30,125 bases of DNA from a virus. Under the pieces are notes generated by a model. The model saw nothing but the letters and a program-made list of their open reading frames with translations, did no database searches and was not told where the DNA came from. The DNA lies in the IMG/VR virus record IMGVR_UViG_3300007539_000124, positions 1 through 30,125 of that record; one strand, given 5' to 3'. The position numbers and the translations under genes were made by a program. Every line of letters starts with the position of its first letter. The stretch's first letter is position 1. This document shows, piece by piece, positions 1,167 through 28,260 of the stretch.

Positions 1167-4100
1167 TCAGTCACCTCCCAAGATAGTCAGCTGTTCATCA
1201 GCCTGGCCCAGCTTCCACGCTGGCACGACGGTCGCTGTGTGAAAGAACGCTGACTGGAAGTCAGTGCTGTTCGGAGGGGCGTACCCGATGTCGCCATCCA
1301 TGCGCAGCTCGATGCTCGTGGCACCGCTGTACTTGTCCTCGTACGGCAGCATGTATGCGATTGACCCGTGGCTATCGTCGAAGTCGCGATTGCGCGTATC
1401 GATCGACAGGAAGTCATCAGCGTCGACTGGAAAGTCCTGTGACGTGCCATCAGCAAACGTAGCAGTGACTGCCATGGCCCCGCGCACGTTGCGGATGTCC
1501 CACGTTTGGCCACCCAGACCTTCGACAAGAAAGTGTGTCGTCCTGCCCTGCATCGCCGTGTTGTTTGGCCGGCTAAAGTTGACAGCCTGCAACGGTATTG
1601 CACCACCAACAACTCGAGTACGGAACCGCCCAAGAGGTGCAAGATTACCGAAGCTGTCTCGGTAGAGCATTGCCTCACCGTCAGCGCGAGACAGGCTAAA
1701 GCCGTCACTATTGATTGTTATGTCGATGCCGGCAGCGTTCTGCTCGATGTTCTTCAGCTCTACGCCAGCTGCGCCGAACAGGTCGGCATGCATACGTGCT
1801 CCAAGAGCTGCAGCGCCTTTCATGCTGTCTTTGTCGAGACCGTACGTGGCCATTGTCAGGTCGCGGATGTTGTCGGTGCTCTTAACGCTGACCTTCTCGG
1901 CGAACAGACCGATCACGTTCACGCCCTTCATCATCTGATCTACAGTGATTTCACCGGCAAACGCACGGGTCGCTGTCCCGCCACCTAGCAAGCTGTCGCC
2001 CAAAGCACCATACAACTCGCGTGGCGCGGACCGTGCAGCCAGCTTGTCGATCTGCTTTTGGATTGCGTCTGGGTTATCTGGCTTGGCAAGGATGGTGTCG
2101 AGGTTAGAGCTAATCGCTAGCACTGCTTCGAATCGCGCATCGTTTACGCCCAAGGAGCCGATTGCCTGCTCGACAGTAGCGATATGATCACTGGTGATTG
2201 CGCCGCTAATCAGCATATTGCCGAACTGGCGCTGTGCCACTGAGAAGCTCTGAGGCGAAAGCGCTAGGATCTGCAGCTCGGGGTTACCAGCAAAGTCTAC
2301 ATATGGCGCGCCAAACTGCTTGCTGTAACTGACAAGACGCTCGACGGTAGCGATCGTGTCTGTCGTGACCTCACCGTCGCGCACCGTCTCAGCAAACACC
2401 TGCGCTAGCAGACCTTCACCGAAGCCATTCCGCTTAGCAAGTGTGATCGCTGCAGCCAACGCGTTGTGTCCGTTTTGATCGCCAGCAGTGATTGCATCGA
2501 GGGCCGGCAAGATCTGCTCACGGATCAGTGCGTTCTGCTTGTTGGTCTTCTGTGTAGCCACCTCGCTTGAGGTCATGCGGTACTCTTCGTTGTAGTACAG
2601 AGTGCCGTTGGTGACCGTAGCTGTTCCCTTCGTGTCGCGGACAGGTTCGTAAGGGCTGCTGTCGATCTTCGACTGAGCCGAGTTGTAACGCGTTGCCGCC
2701 TTCTTCGTAGCGTTCAACAGGTCTTCTTGCTCGTCGATGCTCATCAAGCCTTCGCTTTGTTGCATCGTTTGCATCATTGAAAGTGTGAACTGCTTGATTT
2801 GCTCTGGGTCTTCAGTCTGATCCAGTGTCAGCTCAAACGCCTTCAGTGTGTTACCGACACGGTTGTCGGAGTCAGCCTTAACGAGACTAGCAATGCGATC
2901 TGCCATTGCATCATCGACACCTACAAACGCGTTTGCTTGATACAAAGCATCCAGCGCGGCTGTGAGGTTTGCTGCGTTCTCGATGTTAGCAACGGTTGCG
3001 CCAGACGCTGCTGCCTGTCCCTGCGCCATCTCGACGTTGCTGACAAACGTCGATGCAATCTCTTCTGGAGCTAGGCCAGTCTTTTCTACCTCTTCACGGT
3101 AGACCTGTGCCAACACTTCAGCGTCTGCCTCGGGAGATCCAGCTTGGAACTCAGCGACATTGTTTATCGCGCTGCTTGCTGCAAAGGCACGCTTGCTCTC
3201 TGCAAAAGCTTTCCCTCGTTCTGCTGCAAACGTAGTGAACGCGCTTGTCTGCATCAGAGCGTCTGCTGAGTTTACTGAGGCGATGATGCCCTGATCGAAG
3301 CCTTCTTTGCCACCAGCTTCTGCAAACTGGCTAGCTAAGCTGTCGAGGAAGTCATCCGTACTGATACCTAACAGAGCGCTGTCGCTCATGTTCTTGTAGC
3401 TCTCAGCTAGCGCTTGATCGGTAATGTCACGCGAGGCTTCGTACTGTGCCATCTGGTTAGCGCGGTCCGCTCCTTCAGCAAGGATCATTGCCTTCTCTAG
3501 GGCAAATGCGTTGTCGCGTGAGACGGCTTCCATAATACGCGAGCGGTTCTCTTCACCGATGCCACGGTCAGCCAGCACTTGGTTCAGCAGTGACGTGCGC
3601 TTGGCGTTCATCGCCATCGTGTACTGAACGGATTCCGCTGCGCTATATTCCTTGATGTTATCGGCCATGTTGCTGTTGAACAGCTCTGGGATCCACGCGT
3701 AGGGCGTGCCACCTTTTTTGCCCCAGTAGTTGCCACCGCCCTTGGCTGTGCCGACAGTGTCGAGGTGCAGAGCGTTACCACCCATGTATCCCTCGCCGCC
3801 GCCGATGCCGACAATACCTAGACCGCGTGCAACCTGGGCGAACTTGATGGCGCGGGGGTCACTGCCGTCGACCGGAATGATCTTGCCCGTTGCTTGGTCA
3901 ATCAGATGCACGTCCGCTGCGTTACCGTGGTCGTGGCGCTGGGTGCCTGTGCGCTGGCCACCCTCGTCAATCCCTGGCTGACCACCGCTGAACACACGGA
4001 CCTCGAGGCCTGTCTGTGCAGCTGCGCTACTCAGGATACCGTACAGCTCATCATCGAGTGGCTTGTTACGGATAGCCTCTTCGTGGGCCATCGTCACCTT

Positions 4101-4526
4101 GCCAGCGCTTGTCCCGACAAACACATCTGTGCCGTAGACAGGCAGGCCTTGCTCCATCCGCAGCTGGTCGAGCTGGATCTGCTGGCTGATGTCGTCGTTG
4201 ACAGCTTTGAAAGCTTCCATTGTGTCGGCGTAGTTGTCACGCGCCTGAGTCAGCGCGAAGTCCTGCTCCATCTTGTACAGCTTGAAGGCGTTCTCCTGCT
4301 CTTGCAGCTGCAGGTTCTGCTCCATCTTCATCATCTGCAGTTGGTTACGGCGTGCCTGCACAGCTGTGTTTGCAAGGTCTTGAATAGGACCGCGTAGGTT
4401 GCCGATGGCGCTTGCTAGTTTTGACAGTGCTTGGCTCTCTCTGTTGTCGAGGAGCGGCCGGTAGTAACTGTCGATCATCTTTGTCGGGGCTGCGTTAGGC
4501 CGCACTGGCCGGATGTATTCCACCAT
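1167..4526 (-). CDS. Internal virion protein, gp15-like, with an M15-type peptidase domain
   Basis: This 1119-residue protein sits where T7 gene 15 lies, between gp14-like and gp16-like genes. Residues about 50-125 are Gln/Met/Glu-rich and predicted helical. At residues 198-205 it has HDHGNAAD, which fits the HxxGxAxD zinc motif of M15 D,D-/L,D-carboxypeptidases, and HLD at 254-256 could give the third ligand (H198, D205, H254). The rest is a long Ala-rich, mostly helical chain without recognised domains. T7 gp15 (747 residues) has no such enzyme; in T7 the murein-cutting activity is in gp16. The likely role is local peptidoglycan cutting during DNA ejection, with the rest forming the ejection core. 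ATG overlaps the gp14-like stop as TAATG. The peptidase match is by motif only. Confidence 0.82.
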   Translation of the reverse strand: MVEYIRPVRPNAAPTKMIDSYYRPLLDNRESQALSKLASAIGNLRGPIQDLANTAVQARRNQLQMMKMEQNLQLQEQENAFKLYKMEQDFALTQARDNYADTMEAFKAVNDDISQQIQLDQLRMEQGLPVYGTDVFVGTSAGKVTMAHEEAIRNKPLDDELYGILSSAAAQTGLEVRVFSGGQPGIDEGGQRTGTQRHDHGNAADVHLIDQATGKIIPVDGSDPRAIKFAQVARGLGIVGIGGGEGYMGGNALHLDTVGTAKGGGNYWGKKGGTPYAWIPELFNSNMADNIKEYSAAESVQYTMAMNAKRTSLLNQVLADRGIGEENRSRIMEAVSRDNAFALEKAMILAEGADRANQMAQYEASRDITDQALAESYKNMSDSALLGISTDDFLDSLASQFAEAGGKEGFDQGIIASVNSADALMQTSAFTTFAAERGKAFAESKRAFAASSAINNVAEFQAGSPEADAEVLAQVYREEVEKTGLAPEEIASTFVSNVEMAQGQAAASGATVANIENAANLTAALDALYQANAFVGVDDAMADRIASLVKADSDNRVGNTLKAFELTLDQTEDPEQIKQFTLSMMQTMQQSEGLMSIDEQEDLLNATKKAATRYNSAQSKIDSSPYEPVRDTKGTATVTNGTLYYNEEYRMTSSEVATQKTNKQNALIREQILPALDAITAGDQNGHNALAAAITLAKRNGFGEGLLAQVFAETVRDGEVTTDTIATVERLVSYSKQFGAPYVDFAGNPELQILALSPQSFSVAQRQFGNMLISGAITSDHIATVEQAIGSLGVNDARFEAVLAISSNLDTILAKPDNPDAIQKQIDKLAARSAPRELYGALGDSLLGGGTATRAFAGEITVDQMMKGVNVIGLFAEKVSVKSTDNIRDLTMATYGLDKDSMKGAAALGARMHADLFGAAGVELKNIEQNAAGIDITINSDGFSLSRADGEAMLYRDSFGNLAPLGRFRTRVVGGAIPLQAVNFSRPNNTAMQGRTTHFLVEGLGGQTWDIRNVRGAMAVTATFADGTSQDFPVDADDFLSIDTRNRDFDDSHGSIAYMLPYEDKYSGATSIELRMDGDIGYAPPNSTDFQSAFFHTATVVPAWKLGQADEQLTILGGD

Positions 4527-5197
4527 TATCGATATTGCCCCATCAGATAGCTGTGTCTCTGGTCAAAGAAGTTCATCTGCGCCTGACCGAACTGCATGCT
4601 CTGATCGAAACTGCGCTGCTGGTAGCTCATTTGAGCGTTGATCATCTGGTTGCTTTGCATCGTCTTTGTGAACGAGCTGAAGGAGCTAATCAGTCCGCCA
4701 AGTGCGGTAAGGTTTACAGCTGCTAGCTCAGCTGGACTGACGCGTCCTTGCGGTACACTCGCGACACGCGCTCTGTAGTCGTAAGCCGCCTGCGTCTTTG
4801 CATCATTGTTGTACTCGAGAAGCATTGCGCGACGGTGTGCAAGACGACCGAGGTTTCGGTTACTGACTTGGCTGATCGCGCCGTAAGTCTCTGTCACGCT
4901 TCGACCAGTCCGACCCGCCGACGCGTTCATTGCGCGTGTCTGGGCCATGACGTCACGTGCTTGCATCGTCTGGTCGAACGCGGCCATCTGCGTCTCCCGA
5001 ACCTGCTCAACCGTCTGCTTGTCGATCTGCTGCTGAGCGATGTCGAATGCCTCGCCGGCCAGCTGCTTGTTGGCATCGTACTGGCGCTGCTGTTCAGCGG
5101 CGCGCTCGTAGATCGCCTGTCGTTGTACGTTAGCCTGGGCAATGCTCAGCCCAGCGTTCATCACGGGACCGATGAGGCCCATGGCGGCAGTACACAT
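4526..5197 (-). CDS. Internal virion protein A, gp14-like
   Basis: 223 residues starting M-C-T-A-A, like the M-C-W-A-A start of T7 gp14 (196 residues). The first 20 residues are hydrophobic (AAMGLIGPVMNAGLSIAQA). They are followed by a long Gln/Ala-rich helical region (residues about 25-100), a second hydrophobic patch near 165-180 (LTALGGLISS) and a Gln/Met/Phe-rich tail. In T7 this protein is part of the internal core, and after ejection it forms a pore in the outer membrane. An AGGAG site precedes the ATG by 7 bases. The ATG directly follows the TAG of the gp13-like gene, and the stop overlaps the next start as TAATG, so the virion genes are translationally coupled. Confidence 0.85.
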   Translation of the reverse strand: MCTAAMGLIGPVMNAGLSIAQANVQRQAIYERAAEQQRQYDANKQLAGEAFDIAQQQIDKQTVEQVRETQMAAFDQTMQARDVMAQTRAMNASAGRTGRSVTETYGAISQVSNRNLGRLAHRRAMLLEYNNDAKTQAAYDYRARVASVPQGRVSPAELAAVNLTALGGLISSFSSFTKTMQSNQMINAQMSYQQRSFDQSMQFGQAQMNFFDQRHSYLMGQYR

Positions 5198-14550: not shown

Positions 14551-14757
14551 TCAGATCCTTAGAATGTTGTTGTTTTGTTCTTCGAAGATTGATTGAAGAT
14601 GCCTGACAACGCCCACTGCACCGACAGATAGCCAGATCTGCCGGTCAGTTTCGTCGACGTTTGGGACGCGGTCAGGGTATCGCTCGAGCAAGTACTCGAG
14701 CAATTCCTTGGTGACGATCGGTGTCGGAGCCGGCGGCTTGTCGGTTAGATCCCGCAT
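14551..14757 (-). CDS. Conserved small phage protein of unknown function
   Basis: 68 residues. After a Pro-rich start (TDKPPAPTPIV) it is helical: KELLEYLLERYPDRVPN, then LSVGAVGVVRHLQSIFEEQ. Small acidic proteins of this shape are common just upstream of the portal gene in T7-like marine phages, but I know of no proven role. Its ATG lies inside the last codons of the reductase gene (13-base overlap), and its stop is 2 bases before the gp7.3-like start, so it bridges the nucleotide-metabolism and structural blocks. Confidence 0.7.
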   Translation of the reverse strand: MRDLTDKPPAPTPIVTKELLEYLLERYPDRVPNVDETDRQIWLSVGAVGVVRHLQSIFEEQNNNILRI

Positions 14758-16409
14758 GAGCCACCAGTTCCGCTGATGTCACAAATGTCGTGGGTTTCGA
14801 CGAACGTCTCGCCCTCGAACTTCTTTGCCTCGCTGTAGGGGACGCTCGTCAATGGCTGACCACCACGCGACCCGTCGGCATACACCGTCATTCCGCGCAG
14901 TCGTGGCGCATAGCGTGCGAACAGGTCGACATAGGTATCGACACTATCCTCGTTGTTCAGCTCAGTCCCCCAAGCAGGAAGGTTAATGGTCGAGCTGATG
15001 GACTGGTCGACATAGTCTTGGATGTCAGCTTGGAACTTGACTCGGCGCTCTGGCTCAGCGGCAAGATCAAGGGCTGACTCAACAGACTCAGGCTCGACAC
15101 CGTACTTGTCGATCATCTCCTGCGCAGCACTGTCGATCACGTACTGGTATCGCCACTCAGTACCGCCAACAAGGTAGCGGCGCTTGTAGGCTGTCGCAAA
15201 GATTGGCTCGATGCCTGTTGTCGTGCCGGCCAGGATACCGATGGTGCCAGTCGGAGCGATGGCGCGTACGCCCCACGGCCTGTTGACACCGAGGTAGGCA
15301 GCAAAGCTGGTCGCTGTCGACTCACTCTCGCCTTTCCAAACGCCCAGCCACTGGTGCAGCTCGGGTGTCACTTCGTACTTGTAACCACGCTGGATCAGCC
15401 ACTCGTGGATTCCCATGAGGCCAAGGCCGAGTCTGCGCGTCTTAGCTCGTGTCTCCCACACTTTGAAGTAGGGCAAGTCTGCGCGCTCTGTTCCACAAAG
15501 TAGAAACTTGGTGGTCAGCTGCACGACATCCTTCAGTTCTTCCAAACTTTCGATCCGACTCAGGTTGACACTGCTCAGATTGCAGCAATCCGAGTCTTCG
15601 CTCGACGTCACCTCTGTGCACGCATTGCGAAGCGTCTCGTTCTCTTTGTCGTAGAAGTTGAAACTGAATCCCGGCTCACTGGTTCGCAGCGCTTGGGCCA
15701 CGTTCTTGCGGAATACAGGGCCAGGATCGCCGGTCTTGTAGTAGTCGATCAGCCACTTGGTGTCGTAGTTGACGCTGATGTTTGTCATGTCGAGTGGCGC
15801 TGGCCAGTTGAAGTCGTCCTGCTTCAGATCCCACAGTGTCTTGTCGGTGCCGGGAACGGGCATGTTCTCCCAGTCCTTCGCCACCAAGAAGTCCATGACG
15901 TCGCCGTGTGCGTGATTGAGGCTGGCATAGATGGCGCTGCGTCGTGATCCGCCTTGCATGACACGTCGGCCGATCTCGTTGATCATCGTCATCTTTGGAA
16001 TCGGGCCGCTAGCAGTTCCACCTGTGCGCTCGATCGGTGACCCGGCTGGTCGATACACGGAGTAGTCCACCCCGATACCCCCGCCCGTCATCAAACAGCT
16101 CTCGGATTTCCACGAGAGATTCGCCCAGTCCTCTCTAGAGTCTTCTTCGGCTTTCAGAAGGTAGCAGTTGTTGAAGAACTTGTTGGGTCGTCCGCCGTAG
16201 TAAATGTAACGACCACCGAACAGCACCTTCATGTTGATGGCGTACTGGGTCAGCTGCTCCTTCTCGTCAGCTGTCATCAGGTCACGGCATACATCCTCGA
16301 CGACAATCGCCACGCGGTCGGCCCATGTCTCATTAGGATCAGCGCGGTATTTCTGGTTGAAGATGTCTTCTGAGAAGGAGTTACGAAAGTAGGTGTTTGG
16401 CTTGCTCAT
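14745..16409 (-). CDS. nrdJ: Class II (adenosylcobalamin-dependent) ribonucleotide reductase
   Basis: 554 residues. It reduces ribonucleotides to deoxyribonucleotides for phage DNA synthesis. Visible motifs are GGGIGVDYSVYRP (109-121), the active-site N-x-C-x-E at N262/C264/E266, and redox-pair candidates C82 (NNCYLL) and C275 or C276 (CCNLSSVNL). The phosphate loop is APTGTIG (385-391) followed by GTTTGIEPIFA. C543 and C552 near the C-terminus fit the tail cysteines that re-reduce the active site. No small-subunit (NrdB) or activase (NrdG) gene is nearby and no glycyl-radical motif is present. Both facts, with the short length, point to the B12-dependent class. The likely electron donor is the CPWC redoxin at 17712-17942. 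Its ATG overlaps the MazG-like stop by 4 bases. Confidence 0.9.
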   Translation of the reverse strand: MSKPNTYFRNSFSEDIFNQKYRADPNETWADRVAIVVEDVCRDLMTADEKEQLTQYAINMKVLFGGRYIYYGGRPNKFFNNCYLLKAEEDSREDWANLSWKSESCLMTGGGIGVDYSVYRPAGSPIERTGGTASGPIPKMTMINEIGRRVMQGGSRRSAIYASLNHAHGDVMDFLVAKDWENMPVPGTDKTLWDLKQDDFNWPAPLDMTNISVNYDTKWLIDYYKTGDPGPVFRKNVAQALRTSEPGFSFNFYDKENETLRNACTEVTSSEDSDCCNLSSVNLSRIESLEELKDVVQLTTKFLLCGTERADLPYFKVWETRAKTRRLGLGLMGIHEWLIQRGYKYEVTPELHQWLGVWKGESESTATSFAAYLGVNRPWGVRAIAPTGTIGILAGTTTGIEPIFATAYKRRYLVGGTEWRYQYVIDSAAQEMIDKYGVEPESVESALDLAAEPERRVKFQADIQDYVDQSISSTINLPAWGTELNNEDSVDTYVDLFARYAPRLRGMTVYADGSRGGQPLTSVPYSEAKKFEGETFVETHDICDISGTGGSCGI

Positions 16410-18090: not shown

Positions 18091-18852
18091 TCAGTCTGTA
18101 AAACAGCCGCACCCCGACAAGTCGAACTCGTCTTGTATGTCGGCTTCGGTGTTGAGTACGGTATCGTACTCATTAAGAGTCAAGTAAGCGGTCTCATTGT
18201 TCCGGCGGTGGCGCAAAAAGGGGCGCGCTGTTTCACCGATAGCTTTCATTGCATCGTCCATCTTTGCAGCGTGGTATTTGTACCTGTCAGGGAATACGTC
18301 ACGCAGCAGAGCGAACTGCTTCTTTCCTGCTTTCACGCAGAAGCCACCACAGTTGTTGTGCGTAAAGCCAAGATCATAAAGGCGCGGCTTTGTGATGTCG
18401 TACTCTGCGAGAATGCTATCATACTGAGGTCGCCACACGTTCAACTCATTCAACAAGCTAATCACTGGGCGTGGGTGCCAGCGCTGCGCTGCTCTTTCTA
18501 AGCGATCGCTTTCTGACCAATCCATTCCTAGTACGAGCGGCTCATCGATTGCAGCATTTTCAGCTAGCCAGTTTTGAATCGGTTTAGTCTTTAACTCAGT
18601 GCTGCAGTGCGCAGTGCGAGTGTTACCGATGTACTTCCTGTCGACAAAGACTTCCCAAGGATCGCGGCCATCACGAAGATAAGTGATAGGCACATCTACT
18701 GCTTTCGCAACATCTTCAATGAAACGATACAGGTCTTCATCTTCAATCAAGGTATCCGCAAACAGTAACGTAAACTCGAGTCCAGCTTTGTGTGCTGCAA
18801 GTGCAGTCACTGCGCTGCCAAGTCCACCGCTAAAAGATATGTGGTGACGCAT
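18091..18852 (-). CDS. PAPS reductase-family PP-loop protein with clustered cysteines
   Basis: 253 residues from ATG 18852, overlapping the DNA polymerase TGA as TGATG, with GGAG 8 bases upstream. The PP-loop SFSGGLGSAVT (6-16) and LLFADTLIEDEDLYRFI place it in the N-type ATP-pyrophosphatase/PAPS reductase superfamily, which activates substrates with ATP. C83 (HCSTELKTKPI), C168 and C172 (HNNCGGFCVKAGKKQF) and C248/C250 (SGCGC) could bind an iron-sulphur cluster or zinc, as in DndC-like enzymes. The substrate is unknown; sulphur assimilation, tRNA or DNA modification are all open. The gene is poorer in G+C than its neighbours: the 60 bases from 18541 have 24 G/C, against 35 in the 60 bases from 19441 in the polymerase. 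This hints at separate acquisition. Confidence 0.85.
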   Translation of the reverse strand: MRHHISFSGGLGSAVTALAAHKAGLEFTLLFADTLIEDEDLYRFIEDVAKAVDVPITYLRDGRDPWEVFVDRKYIGNTRTAHCSTELKTKPIQNWLAENAAIDEPLVLGMDWSESDRLERAAQRWHPRPVISLLNELNVWRPQYDSILAEYDITKPRLYDLGFTHNNCGGFCVKAGKKQFALLRDVFPDRYKYHAAKMDDAMKAIGETARPFLRHRRNNETAYLTLNEYDTVLNTEADIQDEFDLSGCGCFTD

Positions 18853-20627
18853 CAGTGGCTCTCCGACCAATCCGGTCCAGTCTGGGTGCCGCACGTCATG
18901 GTGACGCGCAGGTTGTAGATTCGGCAGGCTTCGGCGAGCGCTGCCTTAATAACTCCCGAGACAAACTCGGTGTGGGCGGGAGCGCAGTCGATCTGGATCT
19001 CGTCGTGCACGTACATGACGAGGTCAGCTGGCACAGGTGTGACGCGTAGCTTCTCGACAATGAGCGATGCCCACTGTTTGCCGACGATCGATGTCGACGA
19101 CTGGATCAGATAGTTGAGCGCCTTGAACGTACCGGCACACGGGATCCAGCGTCCGTCGAGAGCTGTGAAGCCGCCGTCCTTTTTGACTCGGGCCTGTACG
19201 TCACTGATCAGCTTGTCGAGTGCCGGGAACGCCTCCATCAGGTCAGCTCGAATCTGGCTACCTGGCCGGCCTGTGATCTCACCAAGCAGCTTGTCACCGC
19301 TGCCGTACAACAGGGCAAAGATCGTGCGTTTGCCTGTCTGTCGATCGACACCCATAGCGTCAGCGTTTGACTGGTGGATGTCACCTTCGGTCAGCATCGC
19401 AGCATAGGCACCGCCGTCATACGCGGCCATGTAGTGGGCCAGCAGCATTAACTCGGCTTTGTCGAGGTCAGCTGCCAGCAGAACACGACCAGGGCTGGCA
19501 GTGAAACACTTGCGACACTCCCGCCCGTAGGCTCCGTGAACGGATGGCACCTGCTGGAGGTTTGGGTTTCGGCTGCTGGTGCGCGACGTGGCGGCACTGT
19601 TGGGTATGACCTGTGCGTGCACACGTCCGCCTCGGTCAGCCTCGAGCCAGCTGTCGAGCAGGCCTAAGCGCTTTTGTACTGTGAACTGCTCGGCGAACAG
19701 CTTGGCGCTGGGGAACTTGTCGGCAATCTTGAGCAGCACCTGCTCGTCGATCTTGGCTTGCCCTGACGTCTCGGTAAACTCGGTCGGCACCCAGCCCTCG
19801 CTGCGGAGCACGCGCTCGATGTGCTGACGGGAGCCGGGGTTGAGCACGACATACTTCACCTTGGTGTACGGACAGCCCTCGGTAACCTCTGGCCGGTTCT
19901 TGTACTTGGCACTGCGCTTAGGTGTGACGACCGGGCCGTCCTGCTCGTACCAGCCGCCGTACTTGTCGGTCAGCTCAGCCGACAGCTCATCCTGCCGATG
20001 CAGTAGCAGTGCACGAAGACGCTCGGCGTGCTCGGTGTCGAACGCGAAGCCAACCTGCTCCATGTCGTGACAGACCTGGGCGAATCTGTGCTCGAGATCA
20101 ACAGCCCTGCTGTTCAGCGCAAGTGCCACCATCTGGTGCCACAGCTTCACAGTCACCCGCACGTCTTGCATGCAGTAGTCTTCCAGCTCCTGCGACCAGC
20201 CATCTGTCCACTCGCCAGTGAACTCTCCCTTGTGCAGGCCAAGGCGGATTCCGTGAGCGCCAAGTGAGTGCGAGCCGTTGAACATGCGGGGTCCGTACTG
20301 GCGCAGGCCTACCTTACCAAAGCGAGCGTAGTCGCGTTCTCGCAGATCCGGCCATGCCAGCCGGCTGAGCACGAGGGTGTCGCGCACAAGCGGCGGCATC
20401 CAATCAGAGTGCAGCTTGCGGATCACAGCGATGTCGAAGTTGATGCCGTTGTGGGCGACGATAGTCTCGGCGTTCGACAACAGACGTAGGCCACGCTCGA
20501 CGTGCTCAGGCTTGAAAGCAAACTCCTCGCCGGTGTCGCAGTCGATGATACAGAGCGAGGTGATGGTTGTTACTTCGTCGAGCAGACCATCGGTTTCGAT
20601 GTCGAAGGCGAGCGTCCTTAGCGACAT
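18852..20627 (-). CDS. DNA polymerase, family A, T7 gp5-like
   Basis: 591 residues. The 3'-5' exonuclease domain is intact: D9/E11 (FDIETDG), D65 (AHNGINFDIAVI) and D155 (YCMQDVRVT). The polymerase motifs are A (AADLDKAELMLLAHYM, D387), B (RQTGKRTIFALLYGSGD) and C (YVHDEIQI, H541-D542-E543). TSRTSSRNPNLQQVPS corresponds to the T7 GRATHAFPNLAQIP region. At 704 residues, T7 gp5 is longer. The stretch matching its thioredoxin-binding segment (KYGGWYEQ to GCPYTKVKYV, about 217-262) is present but about 30 residues shorter. It is the replicative enzyme. GAGGT lies 6 bases before ATG. It overlaps both neighbours by a few bases. Confidence 0.96.
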   Translation of the reverse strand: MSLRTLAFDIETDGLLDEVTTITSLCIIDCDTGEEFAFKPEHVERGLRLLSNAETIVAHNGINFDIAVIRKLHSDWMPPLVRDTLVLSRLAWPDLRERDYARFGKVGLRQYGPRMFNGSHSLGAHGIRLGLHKGEFTGEWTDGWSQELEDYCMQDVRVTVKLWHQMVALALNSRAVDLEHRFAQVCHDMEQVGFAFDTEHAERLRALLLHRQDELSAELTDKYGGWYEQDGPVVTPKRSAKYKNRPEVTEGCPYTKVKYVVLNPGSRQHIERVLRSEGWVPTEFTETSGQAKIDEQVLLKIADKFPSAKLFAEQFTVQKRLGLLDSWLEADRGGRVHAQVIPNSAATSRTSSRNPNLQQVPSVHGAYGRECRKCFTASPGRVLLAADLDKAELMLLAHYMAAYDGGAYAAMLTEGDIHQSNADAMGVDRQTGKRTIFALLYGSGDKLLGEITGRPGSQIRADLMEAFPALDKLISDVQARVKKDGGFTALDGRWIPCAGTFKALNYLIQSSTSIVGKQWASLIVEKLRVTPVPADLVMYVHDEIQIDCAPAHTEFVSGVIKAALAEACRIYNLRVTMTCGTQTGPDWSESH

Positions 20628-23871: not shown

Positions 23872-24058
23872 GTGATTCCTTTGGGGGAGGAGGTGGAGCT
23901 GGTCGCTCGACATACTCTCCGCACCAGTAAGCCGGATGAACGGCCGCGATCTCTGGGTAGCGATGACAGCTGTGTCGAACAAAAGCGCCAGGTCCAGCCT
24001 GTGACTGCACGTAGAACAGGCAGGAATTGCACTGCCGATCAGGCGAAGAAGTAGTCAC
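23792..24058 (-). CDS. Small Cys/His protein with a basic Pro-rich tail
   Basis: 88 residues from GTG 24058, preceded by AGGAGG with 9 bases of spacing. The start overlaps the end of the RNA polymerase gene by 20 bases. The N-terminal part has C10-x2-C13 (QCNSCLFY), then HSCHRYPE and WCGEYV, a pattern common in small phage proteins of unknown role and likely to bind zinc or an iron-sulphur cluster. The second half is Pro-rich (PAPPPPPKE, PTPEPPKPKRR) and strongly basic. The longer frame reaching 24184 reads into the polymerase gene and is not supported. Function unknown. Confidence 0.7.
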   Translation of the reverse strand: MTTSSPDRQCNSCLFYVQSQAGPGAFVRHSCHRYPEIAAVHPAYWCGEYVERPAPPPPPKESHDPTPEPPKPKRRAVRTKSRPSRQVR

Positions 24059-26609
24059 TGTTGCGGACCTCCTCGATATTGAAGTTGCCACGGCTTGGTG
24101 GTGCCGGGATGTCTGCGCCTGCCAGCTGCGCACTGAATGTCTCGGCCAAGCTGGCCAGCAAGTCAGTGCTGTAGGTGTCGACAAACGCGCTCTTGAGTGG
24201 GCCGTCCGGTGCTAACAACGCTGCGCGTGCGTTGACGTGGACACCGAATGAGTCATGGATCGCGACCCAGTCGTTAATCGGATCTGCCGTTGTGCACCCG
24301 TTCACGATCGTCTGTGCGAGGATCGACGAGTCCAGACTGTGAATCAGGTTCGGTGCGATGCTGTTCTGCATACGCGTCCGAGCCAGCTGATCGGTCTGGC
24401 GGCGTAGTTGTGGGCTGAAGATCGCACCGTTGAATGCAGTCTTCACTCGATACGGTTCGCTGTGCCACTCAGCCTGCTTGACCGGCGCACCTGTAGGCGT
24501 CACCCACGAGAGCGGAGTGTTGGACTCGACAGCCAGAGCAGCGATCTTTCGCAGCCACTGCTGGACCTGTACTGGTCGGGTCAGTGTACCCTCAAGTGCG
24601 TCCCACAGGAGGTTGTTGATGAACCGAGCGTACCGTTTGACGTCAGGGTAGGGCGGCTCAGCACCGTCTTTGATGTCGGCGTGGATGGCGTTGTGGATGT
24701 TGTCGTTGGTGGCCCAGCGTGTCCCGCTGTATGGCATCACCATCACGACGTTCTTTGCCCATGCGCGTGGAATACCGTGACGCTCGAGTGCCAGCGACAT
24801 CTCATAGTCCCGGTCATCGATCGACAAGCCAGTGCCTAGCTCGACCGCCTTGTCTCGGATAGCTGTGTAGATGTCGGCCGGGATCGGGTCATCCGACAGG
24901 CACACTGACTCGCAGGTTGTCGGGTCGAGTGTGAGACCACCGAAGTTCTGTAGGCCGTTGCACTTACCGTCGACGTAGCTGATGAGCCGGGACGTGAAGC
25001 CAAGACCAATCGCGTCGAACTGTGCCAGCTCAGTGCACGCACGCAGCGCCTGCCATGGGTCATCAAACTTCCACAGCCAGTCGAGGTTCTGCTGCCAATT
25101 CGTACCGTAGCCGACAAGTTCTTGCTTGTGCTTCTCGACCCAATCAATCCTGTCCTCTAGCGTACCTTTGTCAGCTCCGCAGGCACCCGCAACCGTGAGG
25201 TACAGGGACTGGACAGCCTCGTCGCTAGCGATCGGCTCGCCTCGGTGGAACTGGATCAGACCACGGGCCAGGTCTTGCCCCTGCGGCTGCAGGTAGGGCG
25301 GCACGTAGTACATACGCCAACGATGGTCGGCCTTGGTCGGCAGGTAGAAGGGACCGGGGTAGCGATTGGCTAGGCTGCAGATCTTGAGGAACCCGAAGCG
25401 ACGACCGAATGCTTTGTTATTGTGGGCGTGGACGTGTGCTCGCTCCCGGTTCAGCTGACGTGCCAGCTCCTCGTTTGCCCAGTCCGCTGGGTCGTTCGGT
25501 GCTGGCAGCTCCCGCAGCGCTGGGTAGTCGCCGGTGTCCAGCTCCTTGTCGCGGACGTACTCTGCCGCCTCAAGGACGTCACGGTTGATCTCGAACGGTG
25601 TCGACTGCAGGGCGTTCATGGCGCGCACGTTGGTGCGTGCGTCAATCCGGTCGTGTGGGTTCTCTTTGTGGTGCCTCTCGAGTTCGATCAGGTAAGCAGG
25701 TGTGCTGCGCTTGATGATACCGTAGGGTGCGACGGATCCAGACCAGTAACCACCGCCGAACAGGTTGGACTCGACAGACCACATGCGAGGATGCACGAGT
25801 GTCGGCATGTAGCTGGTGAACAGCTCCTCAAACTTGCTGACGGTGCGCTCGATCAGTGCGCCCATGTGCTGGGTCACGCCGAGGCAGCGGCTGGTCCGGT
25901 GTCCCTCTCGATGTGTGTACTCGACAAAGAACGGACCTGTCTGTCGGATCACGTCCAACAAAGTGATGCCGATCTGCGTCTGGGCTTTAGTCTCGAGCTG
26001 CTCGAGGGTGTCGTCACCTCGGACAAGGGAGCGTGCTTGCTTGATCTGGATCTCGGTGCGGTACGCCTCTCGACGCCACGTGTCTTCGATCTGCTCTGCT
26101 GTCTTGCTGTGCGCAGCTGACCAAAGCGACCAGTGATACTCGTCAGCGACACGACGGCCAACGTGAGCAGCGATCGTGCTCAGCTTGGCGTGCTTGTGTG
26201 CGCCCGACAACATAGGGACAAGATTGAAGACAGTGCGGAGGGCGGTGAACATGACGGCGTCGGCCCCCAAGACATCAACCACGGTGACTAGGTGAGAATC
26301 ACCGACAGCGTGCTGACCTGGAAGGCCGACTCCGTTCTCGATGCGATCCATGAGATGGCTGGAAGCCTCTCGGAGGATCGATCGAATCACGTGACGGGTC
26401 GGGGTCGCATCTGCTTGCCGACCTAGTTCAACCATACGCTGGACCTGACGCTTGGCGCGGGAGGTTCCCTCTTCTGCCATCCGCTCTGAGTTTCGCAGCT
26501 CAGTTAACATCGCGCCGTCAACGTGGTGGGGAGATTCAACGGCGCTGTCGGGATACGCATCAGGCGTGCGTGGGTTAGTGTCACGTGTCGTACTGGGTAC
26601 GTTAACCAT
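24039..26609 (-). CDS. Single-subunit DNA-dependent RNA polymerase, T7 gp1-like
   Basis: 856 residues (T7: 883). Catalytic residues are visible: D547 in SYVDGKCNGLQNFGG (T7 D537), R615 and K619 with Y627 in IPRAWAKNVVMVMPYSG (T7 R627, K631, Y639), and H785/D786 in IHDSFG (T7 H811/D812). NSIAPNLIHSLDSS matches T7 SGIAPNFVHSQDGS. The C-terminus YFFA resembles T7 DFAFA. The N-terminal 90 residues align loosely with the T7 promoter-binding region. The specificity loop (about 705-745) differs from T7, so its promoters should differ too. It transcribes middle and late genes. The gene begins about 70 bp inside the attP segment, and the ATG has only a weak ribosome site (GAGA). Confidence 0.96.
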   Translation of the reverse strand: MVNVPSTTRDTNPRTPDAYPDSAVESPHHVDGAMLTELRNSERMAEEGTSRAKRQVQRMVELGRQADATPTRHVIRSILREASSHLMDRIENGVGLPGQHAVGDSHLVTVVDVLGADAVMFTALRTVFNLVPMLSGAHKHAKLSTIAAHVGRRVADEYHWSLWSAAHSKTAEQIEDTWRREAYRTEIQIKQARSLVRGDDTLEQLETKAQTQIGITLLDVIRQTGPFFVEYTHREGHRTSRCLGVTQHMGALIERTVSKFEELFTSYMPTLVHPRMWSVESNLFGGGYWSGSVAPYGIIKRSTPAYLIELERHHKENPHDRIDARTNVRAMNALQSTPFEINRDVLEAAEYVRDKELDTGDYPALRELPAPNDPADWANEELARQLNRERAHVHAHNNKAFGRRFGFLKICSLANRYPGPFYLPTKADHRWRMYYVPPYLQPQGQDLARGLIQFHRGEPIASDEAVQSLYLTVAGACGADKGTLEDRIDWVEKHKQELVGYGTNWQQNLDWLWKFDDPWQALRACTELAQFDAIGLGFTSRLISYVDGKCNGLQNFGGLTLDPTTCESVCLSDDPIPADIYTAIRDKAVELGTGLSIDDRDYEMSLALERHGIPRAWAKNVVMVMPYSGTRWATNDNIHNAIHADIKDGAEPPYPDVKRYARFINNLLWDALEGTLTRPVQVQQWLRKIAALAVESNTPLSWVTPTGAPVKQAEWHSEPYRVKTAFNGAIFSPQLRRQTDQLARTRMQNSIAPNLIHSLDSSILAQTIVNGCTTADPINDWVAIHDSFGVHVNARAALLAPDGPLKSAFVDTYSTDLLASLAETFSAQLAGADIPAPPSRGNFNIEEVRNSDYFFA

Positions 26610-26631
26610 AATAAACTATCTCACTGGTCTG

Positions 26632-26651
26632 GCAACGGAAAGTTACGTTGC
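26632..26651. repeat. Inverted repeat in the RNA polymerase leader
   Basis: GCAACG (26632-26637) and CGTTGC (26646-26651) are perfect 6-base arms around an 8-base spacer, 23 bases upstream of the polymerase start. Read on the minus strand, TTGACG, close to a sigma-70 -35 box, overlaps the right arm (about 26650-26655). I see no matching -10 box at 16-18 bases. An operator, an integrase site or an mRNA hairpin near the polymerase ribosome site are all possible. Confidence 0.35.
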
Positions 26652-26677
26652 GTCAAATTTAAAAGTGAGATTCGGGA

Positions 26678-26727
26678 GTGCATTCGTAATGCGTGGGTCG
26701 GGTGTTCGAGTCACCTTACCAGCACCA
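26678..26727 (+). other. attP core: 3' half of a tRNA-Thr(CGT)
   Basis: Fifty bases fold as the 3' part of a tRNA. Anticodon stem GTGCA/TGCGT (26678-26682, 26690-26694) encloses loop TTCGTAA, with anticodon CGT. Next come a 5-base variable region, T-arm GGGTG-TTCGAGT-CACCT (26700-26716), acceptor strand TACCAGC, discriminator A and CCA (26725-26727). GCATTCGTAATGCG is identical to the same part of E. coli thrW. No D-arm or 5' acceptor strand lies upstream, so this is not a working tRNA gene. Next to a tyrosine integrase, a 3' tRNA fragment is the classical attP identity segment. It predicts a host tRNA-Thr with acceptor 5' strand GCTGGTA. Confidence 0.88.
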
Positions 26728-26744
26728 CTTTTCTGTGGCGCTTC

Positions 26745-26763
26745 AGCGCGTTACGGGCGCGCT
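26745..26763. repeat. GC-rich inverted repeat beside attP
   Basis: AGCGCG (26745-26750) and CGCGCT (26758-26763) are perfect arms around a 7-base spacer, 17 bases beyond the CCA of the tRNA-like segment. On the minus-strand RNA a second hairpin, GCGCCAC/GTGGTGC with one wobble pair, covers about 26722-26741. Neither is followed by a U run. They may mark integrase or accessory-factor binding, or slow transcription leaving the integrase gene. Confidence 0.3.
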
Positions 26764-26778
26764 CCCAAATCTCTGTGT

Positions 26779-26817
26779 GTACTGTAACGGTACGGTACTA
26801 CTGTCTCGTAACAGTAC
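26779..26817. promoter_or_regulatory. Inverted-repeat site between integrase stop and attP
   Basis: GTACTGTAACG (26779-26789) and CGTAACAGTAC (26807-26817) are 11-base arms with one mismatch, 17 bases apart. The spacer contains a tandem ACGGT. The heptamers CTGTAAC and ACAGTAC both recur in the 95-bp gap before the MarR-like gene (28244-28250 and 28227-28233). The site suits either an operator for the nearby regulator or integrase arm-type sites. Confidence 0.45.
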
Positions 26818-26824
26818 TGGCTAA

Positions 26825-27841
26825 TTAAACATTATGCGCACGGCTGTCAAGCGCCTTGCGCAGATCGTGGGCCGACTCGATGTGCTCGTATCGAGAGACC
26901 ATGGCGTAGCTATTCCACCCACCCCAAGCCTTCAGCTGCGGCAAGGTGAATCCATCTTGAGCCAAGCGCGTCATGCACGTGTGCCGCAGACTGTGCGGCG
27001 TGAAGTCCTCGTCGGACGACAATCCCATGTCATGCTTCACAGCGTTCCATCGACGATAGAAGACTTTATGAGATGTTAATATGTCGAACGGACCAGACTC
27101 ATGGCCCCGCTCAGTCCACGCGTCATCGAGTGCGTCACGCACAGGCTGACGCAGAGGGATCGTGCGCGGCTTGTTTGACTTGGTCTTACGGAACACGACA
27201 GCATCATCCTCGACATCGACCCAGCGCAGCTGAGCGGTCTCGGTGTATCGACTGCCGAGGTACAACAGCGCTGTGGCGAACTGGCCGTACACGCTGCCGT
27301 GCTCGGTCAGGCCAGCGATCAGGCGATCGCACTCGTCACGTGTGAACACACGATCACGCTGCCGGCCGGTCCCCTTATGTCGGTAGATCGGTGGCTTGGT
27401 GATCATGCCTCGCTGGCTAGCCCACGACATGATTTTGTTGAACTTGCTAAGCCGGTGATTGATGGTCGAGGCTGATTTGCCATCGGCGTGCAGCGCATCG
27501 GCCATCTGAATAAGATCCTGCTCCGTGATTGTGTCGATCGGCATCGGGCCGAACCACTCGCACAGCTTGGTCACGTTGGTGCCGATGGCTGCGCGATCAC
27601 GGTTGCCGGCAAAGACGACCGGGACAGCGAGCTTGGCCACGTCGGCGAACGTCGTGGCTGGCTCGGTTGATTCCATGTCGGGTTCTTTACCTAGTCGGAC
27701 GGACTGACGGGCGCTTGCCTGCCAAGCCAGGGCGGCGTCAAGAGTCGGGAACTCGCTGACTAACCGCCGATATAACTTCTTGGTCAGCCGACCAGCGCTC
27801 AAATGCTCAAGCGGTGTGTTGACGGACACGTATTTCTGCAT
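26825..27841 (-). CDS. int: Tyrosine recombinase (phage integrase)
   Basis: 338 residues from ATG 27841, with GGGGAGA 9 bases upstream; the frame extends further but into the MarR-like gene. The catalytic set is complete: R198 (LLYLGSRYTETAQLRW), K221 (FRKTKSNKPRTIPL), H283 and R286 (TPHSLRHTCM), W309 in the second His/Trp position (KAWGGWNSYAMVSRY) and nucleophile Y318. Residues about 65-150 form the SAM-like core-binding domain (ITEQDLIQMADAL, STINHRLSKFNKIMSWA). It should integrate the phage at a host tRNA-Thr gene through the attP segment 100 bp downstream. The start is 4 bases after the MarR-like stop, so the two are probably co-transcribed. Confidence 0.95.
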   Translation of the reverse strand: MQKYVSVNTPLEHLSAGRLTKKLYRRLVSEFPTLDAALAWQASARQSVRLGKEPDMESTEPATTFADVAKLAVPVVFAGNRDRAAIGTNVTKLCEWFGPMPIDTITEQDLIQMADALHADGKSASTINHRLSKFNKIMSWASQRGMITKPPIYRHKGTGRQRDRVFTRDECDRLIAGLTEHGSVYGQFATALLYLGSRYTETAQLRWVDVEDDAVVFRKTKSNKPRTIPLRQPVRDALDDAWTERGHESGPFDILTSHKVFYRRWNAVKHDMGLSSDEDFTPHSLRHTCMTRLAQDGFTLPQLKAWGGWNSYAMVSRYEHIESAHDLRKALDSRAHNV

Positions 27842-27845
27842 CGTT

Positions 27846-28208
27846 CTATGTCTCCCCTGTTGATGAGAACAAAGAGCGAACGAACATGCCGCCCTTTGGA
27901 GTGAAACGCAAGTCAGTAAACCGACGATTGTCGAGGTTCTGACTCGTCTGGATGAATCCCTTACCGACAACACCGCTGGCGCTGTGCTGCGACCAGTAGG
28001 TCACGGCACGGCTGACCGACGCGTGTGTGATGGGCAAGGTGTCGACAAGATCTGACTGCCGCGCCGTGTTCGTCTCGTCACGTGCCATCAAGTAGGCAGT
28101 TTCGACGATCGCCATCATGGATGGCAAACTAATGCGGTAATCAACGGTCGCGAACGTGGCGAGCTGACGACGTAGTGTGTCGATCTCGCGAAGCATTTCT
28201 GGTCTCAC
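27846..28208 (-). CDS. MarR-like winged-helix transcription regulator
   Basis: 120 residues from GTG 28208, with AGGGAGA 7 bases upstream. The pattern is MarR-like. An N-terminal helix is followed by SLPSMMAIVETAYLMARDE. The helix-turn-helix is ARQSDLVDTLPITHASVSRAVTYWSQ, and the wing is IQTSQNLDNRRFTDLRFTPKGG, with the D-x-R-R then T-x-K-G ending of the family. It lies directly upstream of, and probably in one operon with, the integrase, which makes it the best candidate for lysogeny control. The short palindromes in its own 5' gap are possible operators. I cannot tell whether it represses the integrase, the early genes or host genes. Confidence 0.75.
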   Translation of the reverse strand: MRPEMLREIDTLRRQLATFATVDYRISLPSMMAIVETAYLMARDETNTARQSDLVDTLPITHASVSRAVTYWSQHSASGVVGKGFIQTSQNLDNRRFTDLRFTPKGGMFVRSLFSSTGET

Positions 28209-28222
28209 AGCGAATCTCCCTT

Positions 28223-28260
28223 CTGTACAGTACCATTACGTCCCTGTAACCGTTTCGGTT
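28223..28260. promoter_or_regulatory. Palindromes in the gap before the MarR-like gene
   Basis: The 95-bp gap 28209-28303 is the only clear gap in the early block. It contains the perfect 8-base palindrome CTGTACAG (28223-28230) and the inverted repeat AACCG-TTT-CGGTT (28248-28260). Both lie just upstream of the MarR-like GTG. ACAGTAC and CTGTAAC here are shared with the inverted repeat next to attP. It is likely a promoter/operator for the regulator-integrase pair. No convincing -35/-10 pair stands out. Confidence 0.45.

Follow-up and report, generated by a model that had tools for sequence, protein, structure and literature searches.

Marine T7-like phages that integrate at an attP site derived from a tRNA gene, lying beside their own integrase gene, are already established. 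In the T7-like cyanophages P-SSP7 and S-TIP37, integration into a tRNA gene at attP was demonstrated by PCR, and deletions of the integrase gene and of attP showed that they are needed, although lysogeny was not found even in these integrating cyanophages (PMC8776855). Further precedents for integrating T7-like phages are LUZ100 (PMC10134795) and the roseophages (PMC11092137), and the assignment of a host from metagenomic data through identity between an att site and a tRNA gene also has a precedent (PMC3861242).

How does the locus examined here compare with these systems? It belongs to a 30,125-base viral record, a 30-kb fragment (hereafter the window). The layout of P-SSP7, in which a regulator, an integrase, a tRNA-derived attP and the RNA polymerase follow one another, is that of the window, and the same order, with a MarR-like regulator, is found in the pelagiphages HTVC019P, HTVC109P, HTVC120P and Bylgja (Autographiviridae), in several of which an inverted repeat brackets the attP region, as in the window. 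The pelagiphages differ in having SAR11 hosts and RNA polymerases less than 60% identical. The roseobacter phages CRP-804, CRP-118 and CRP-171 (Autographiviridae) share the regulator-integrase-RNA polymerase layout (PMC11092137), but the gap between their integrase and RNA polymerase genes lacks a recognisable tRNA-Thr half; CRP-804 is among the top RNA polymerase matches in the phage collection, at approximately 28%. New in the window are its target tRNA, its host lineage and its polarity. For P-SSP7 and S-TIP37 the target is tRNA-Leu, whereas the window carries a tRNA-Thr piece, and the hosts differ. Moreover, P-SSP7, P-SSP3, HTVC109P, HTVC120P and Bylgja, read by eye, have a 5′ half in the sense of the integrase gene (a tRNA-Leu half in HTVC109P and a half with a TCT anticodon in HTVC120P and Bylgja), whereas the window has a 3′ half antisense to the integrase gene. 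In P-SSP7, a promoter-like sequence is visible upstream of the tRNA half, as expression of the tRNA after integration would need.

Results

A half tRNA between the RNA polymerase and integrase genes

The proposed attP lies between the gene for a T7-type RNA polymerase and the integrase gene, whose stop codon is approximately 100 bp away (Table 1). The sequence-only reading had described positions 26678-26727 as an attP site built from the 3′ half of a tRNA-Thr(CGT), and all of the tRNA parts that it had named can be read directly in this segment, from which the D-arm and the 5′ acceptor strand are absent. A complete tRNA was ruled out, in that ARAGORN found none in the window and the Rfam tRNA model gave the half tRNA 16.5 bits against a 29-bit cut-off, and this only by bridging a 45-base gap. 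An Rfam miRNA match was discarded, its score being far under its cut-off. The identity of the half tRNA stood from position 26680 onward only: because the host anticodon 5′ stem is ACGCA and that of the window GTGCA, the GT at 26678-26679 (AC in the host) is phage-specific and the core starts at 26680, not at 26678.

Table 1. Features of the proposed integration locus in the window
Feature	Position	Strand	Sequence or evidence
T7-type single-subunit RNA polymerase	24039..26609	-	phrog_414, E 6e-159; PF00940, E 1.9e-61
Promoter-like element ahead of the RNA polymerase gene, between attP and that gene	26608..26635	-	TTGCCA-16-TATTAT
Left arm of imperfect inverted repeat	26667..26678	+	GAGATTCGGGAG; 11/12 complementary to 26762-26773
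Anticodon 5′ stem	26678-26682		GTGCA; direct reading
Proposed attP core	26680..26733	+	Host tRNA-Thr(CGT) 3′ half, exact, plus at most 6 bp past CCA
Anticodon loop, putative 7-bp crossover region	26683-26689	+	TTCGTAA; CGT anticodon at 26685-26687
Anticodon 3′ stem	26690-26694		TGCGT; direct reading
Variable region	26695-26699		GGGTC; direct reading
T-stem	26700-26704		GGGTG; direct reading
T-loop	26705-26711		TTCGAGT; direct reading
T-stem	26712-26716		CACCT; direct reading
Acceptor strand	26717-26723		TACCAGC; direct reading
Discriminator	26724		A; direct reading
CCA	26725-26727		CCA; direct reading
Right arm of inverted repeat	26762..26773	+	CTCCCAAATCTC
Tyrosine integrase	26825..27973	-	PF00589, E 7e-20; PHROG 1, E 2.6e-40
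Small regulator upstream of the integrase gene	27846..28208	-	phrog_9665 transcriptional regulator, E 6.6e-8

The adjoining tyrosine integrase had been called complete, and both the domain match and the intact catalytic motifs (Arg, HSLRH, GGW and YEH) agree with this. As listed, its open reading frame begins within the regulator gene (region 27839-27973); the true start is likely to be the ATG at about 27841, directly after the regulator stop. The small regulator occupies the place of the MarR-like gene of the relatives, and its homologues adjoin the integrase gene in the viral contigs L045, L061, L007, L013 and L017. Together with the RNA polymerase, genes for a primase/helicase, PolA, an exonuclease, a head-tail connector, a scaffold, a major head protein, and tail and internal virion proteins give the window a gene complement of T7 type. 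As in temperate T7-like phages (former Autographiviridae), the regulator and integrase genes lie upstream of the RNA polymerase gene, in the order of CRP-804, HTVC019P and P-SSP7. Elements of the TTGCCA-16-TATTAT kind are also visible in contigs L002 and L061. Repeats of the type GTACTGTWAC were noticed at 26781-26820, beside the integrase stop, and at 28220-28250, upstream of the regulator gene; those near the integrase gene are conserved in L002 and L061, and the repeats are candidate operator or excisionase sites common to both places.

The complete gene in a family of marine Alphaproteobacteria

An exact-match scan of 84,980 GTDB species genomes with one 41-bp pattern, which admits both the core of the window and its variant in L061, returned seven places in only four genomes, all of them marine alphaproteobacterial metagenome-assembled genomes (MAGs). 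Complete tRNA-Thr(CGT) genes, which read GCTGGTATAGCTCAGTTGGTAGAGCAACGCATTCGTAATGCGTGGGTCGGGTGTTCGAGTCACCTTACCAGCACCA, are among these places, so that the host gene with an equal 3′ half that the sequence-only reading proposed to look for does exist. The four genomes, deposited as Geminicoccus sp., Rhodospirillaceae bacterium and uncultured Alphaproteobacteria, fall into one GTDB family, represented by six genomes. Exact identity to the window is longest for L055, where it extends past the CCA (54 bp, 26680-26733), followed by L054, L058 and L060 (51 bp, 26680-26730) and L059 (48 bp, 26680-26727). Because complete tRNA-Thr(CGT) genes of four MAGs match it exactly over 48-54 bp, the half tRNA is no chance resemblance, and it has the exact identity to one end of a host tRNA gene that distinguishes a tRNA-derived attP. 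The acceptor strand TACCAGC of the half tRNA was also expected to serve as a handle for the host, and the matches of the core are indeed confined to this one family. The restriction of the matching gene to one small group of uncultured ocean bacteria makes these the likely hosts, the MAGs being incomplete and open to mis-binning.

Related viral contigs

The identical core, between different flanks, is carried by viral contigs L007, L013, L017, L031, L045, L049 and L050. Some of these are near-copies (L007 and L049 are 96% identical; L013, L031 and L050 approximately 93% or more), and at least four distinguishable viral types carry the core besides the window. Their integrases range in identity to that of the window from 55% (L045) down to 35-37%, and in all of them the half tRNA lies between the RNA polymerase and integrase genes, with the small regulator following the integrase. 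Contigs L061 and L062 (integrase 72%) have a variant tRNA-Thr(CGT) half in the same place. In the phage collection no record carries the window core; only partial tRNA matches of 33-37 bp were obtained, in faecal contigs.

The closest integrase relative, L002 (integrase 80%, RNA polymerase 90%), nevertheless lacks the tRNA piece at this place. Instead, its region 1200-1320 contains TACGCA-TTTGCCG-TGCGTA followed by unrelated sequence, so that the half-sites resemble those of the window and the overlap and identity block differ, as if these two had been swapped for another target. When its target was sought in the four host-family genomes and in 385 genomes of the class, the matches were short and chance-like, none exceeding 39 bp, and the L002 core was not found in other viral contigs.

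An occupied site, and a possible second one, in host MAGs

The integration of a related phage has left a trace in the SP156 MAG. Its contig L059 contains a complete tRNA gene (848-923), an insert of approximately 3.8 kb and a partly degraded half tRNA (4712-4763), beyond which the contig is again homologous to the host flank of L054. Immediately to the left of the half tRNA, the DNA is approximately 86% identical to the phages L007 and L017 (the match spans 166 bp and includes the half tRNA); its translation, MIAIDKRDDEAQRTDSAST, agrees with the N-termini of their RNA polymerases. Judged by its sequence, this junction is the attR that would be expected from the model set out below, left by a related phage. 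The remainder of the island is not phage-like; by eye, the open reading frames of L059:848-4764 are methyltransferase-like, flippase-like and ATP-grasp-like, with the phage RNA polymerase N-terminus at the end.

A second occupied site is suggested, not proved, by two contigs of the MED756 MAG. In L057, 404 bp of foreign DNA lead into a half tRNA and then into a host flank 99% identical to L056, and L055 stops nine bases past an intact tRNA, where it reads CTTTTC, as in the phages, versus CTTCTT in the host flank. Restoration of the tRNA gene with both attL and attR in the host is seen for the decayed relative in L059 and in part for L057/L055, not for the phage of the window. The search for prophages of this type in the host, which the sequence-only reading had proposed, thus yielded a decayed relative and no complete prophage like that expected of the window: neither the four host genomes nor 11 genomes of their order contained a prophage with this integrase (integrase matches in other genomes of the order were weak, 24-31% identity), and no viral contig joining a complete host tRNA to phage DNA was found.

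Discussion

Probable integration into tRNA-Thr(CGT)

Very probably, 26680-26733 forms the core of the attP through which a temperate T7-like podovirus integrates into the host tRNA-Thr(CGT) gene, by a crossover in the anticodon loop. The exact host genes, the conserved position between the RNA polymerase and integrase genes and the occupied site of a relative all favour the target originally named. In tRNA integration of the anticodon-loop class, which is the usual one, strands are exchanged in the loop and the anticodon stem supplies the core half-sites. The block of identity to the host is on the side of the integrase in each phage of the group, and it breaks off within 1-4 bases upstream of the anticodon loop, which fits a crossover in the 7-bp loop. 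The integrase would recombine the attP core with the chromosomal tRNA-Thr(CGT) gene of the marine alphaproteobacterium, with the two halves of the anticodon stem acting as its core-type binding sites and its arm sites lying in the flanking phage DNA. The 3′ half brought in by the phage, anticodon loop through CCA, would take the place of the displaced host 3′ half, so that the tRNA would stay intact at attL, with the integrase gene beside it. At the opposite end of the prophage, beside attR, would lie the RNA polymerase gene, still preceded by its own promoter-like element.

Might the half tRNA instead be a fragment captured by imprecise excision or recombination, which no longer serves integration? 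The absence of the tRNA piece in L002, beside an 80%-identical integrase, would fit such a history, as would the failure to find an intact prophage in the genomes of the host family and order or in viral contigs. Nevertheless, a captured fragment would be expected to drift, whereas several divergent viral types share at least 41 bp of the core without a mismatch, it always occupies the same place beside the integrase gene and always breaks at the anticodon loop, and the neighbouring integrase is intact. We therefore regard capture as very unlikely. A still smaller probability attaches to the idea that the element is a functional or decoy phage RNA, derived from or antisense to the tRNA, and not a recombination site: the integrase-sense strand does fold very stably (z -6.6), but the 5′ half is absent, ARAGORN and Rfam gave no hit and only a sub-threshold score, and the element is present as occupied-site junctions in host MAGs.

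Identification of the half tRNA as a probable attP assigns a likely host, at the level of sequence, to a group of uncultured marine T7-like phages, and the tRNA-Thr junctions are a ready marker for measuring integration by the group in metagenomes. It is also a further indication that integration by T7-like phages, which were long deemed lytic, is common in ocean bacteria other than SAR11, cyanobacteria and Roseobacter.

Possible roles of the inverted repeat

The imperfect repeat, which brackets the core in most of the relatives as well, is significant in a shuffle test in the window, L002 and L013 and weaker in the other phages of the group; among cultured relatives it is significant in HTVC019P and borderline in HTVC109P, Bylgja and S28C10, and the test yielded nothing in P-SSP7 and most roseophages. 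Within the group, arms of the same phage score 17-26 for pairing and swapped arms mostly 10-16, most phages matching best within the phage; only swaps between near relatives, and a number of those with L007, L049 and L061, depart from this. The likeliest role of the repeat is that of paired integrase or excisionase arm sites.

A role as an RNA attenuator is possible. With attP functioning as proposed, the repeat might form an RNA stem attenuating read-through from the integrase into the RNA polymerase gene, and because integration separates the two arms, only the unintegrated genome would have the stem. Consistent with this, the arms vary from phage to phage although the two arms of one phage usually match, the fold is strong (region 26640-26800 on the minus, integrase-sense strand, -62.2 kcal/mol, z -6.6), and LUZ100 has a terminator directly after its integrase gene (PMC10134795). 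The same arms, however, would be expected of inverted integrase or excisionase sites, the stem is followed by a weak T-rich tail in the window and by none in L007, and some cultured relatives have no significant repeat; we consequently hold the attenuator to be rather improbable. Equally doubtful, taken as a whole, is a wider scheme in which several T7-like lineages, with integrases down to 35% identical, use one tRNA-Thr(CGT) 3′ half in one uncultured family of marine Alphaproteobacteria. In this scheme, lineage-specific inverted arms, forming a stem only when unintegrated, would make the state of the RNA polymerase gene depend on integration, and L002 would have exchanged its overlap and identity block but retained the core half-sites.

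Elsewhere in the window, we noted auxiliary metabolic genes for a ribonucleotide reductase large subunit and a PAPS-reductase-like protein (14745-16409 and 18091-18894), and, among the virion genes, an open reading frame of 1119 amino acids (1167-4526) that has no PHROG match.
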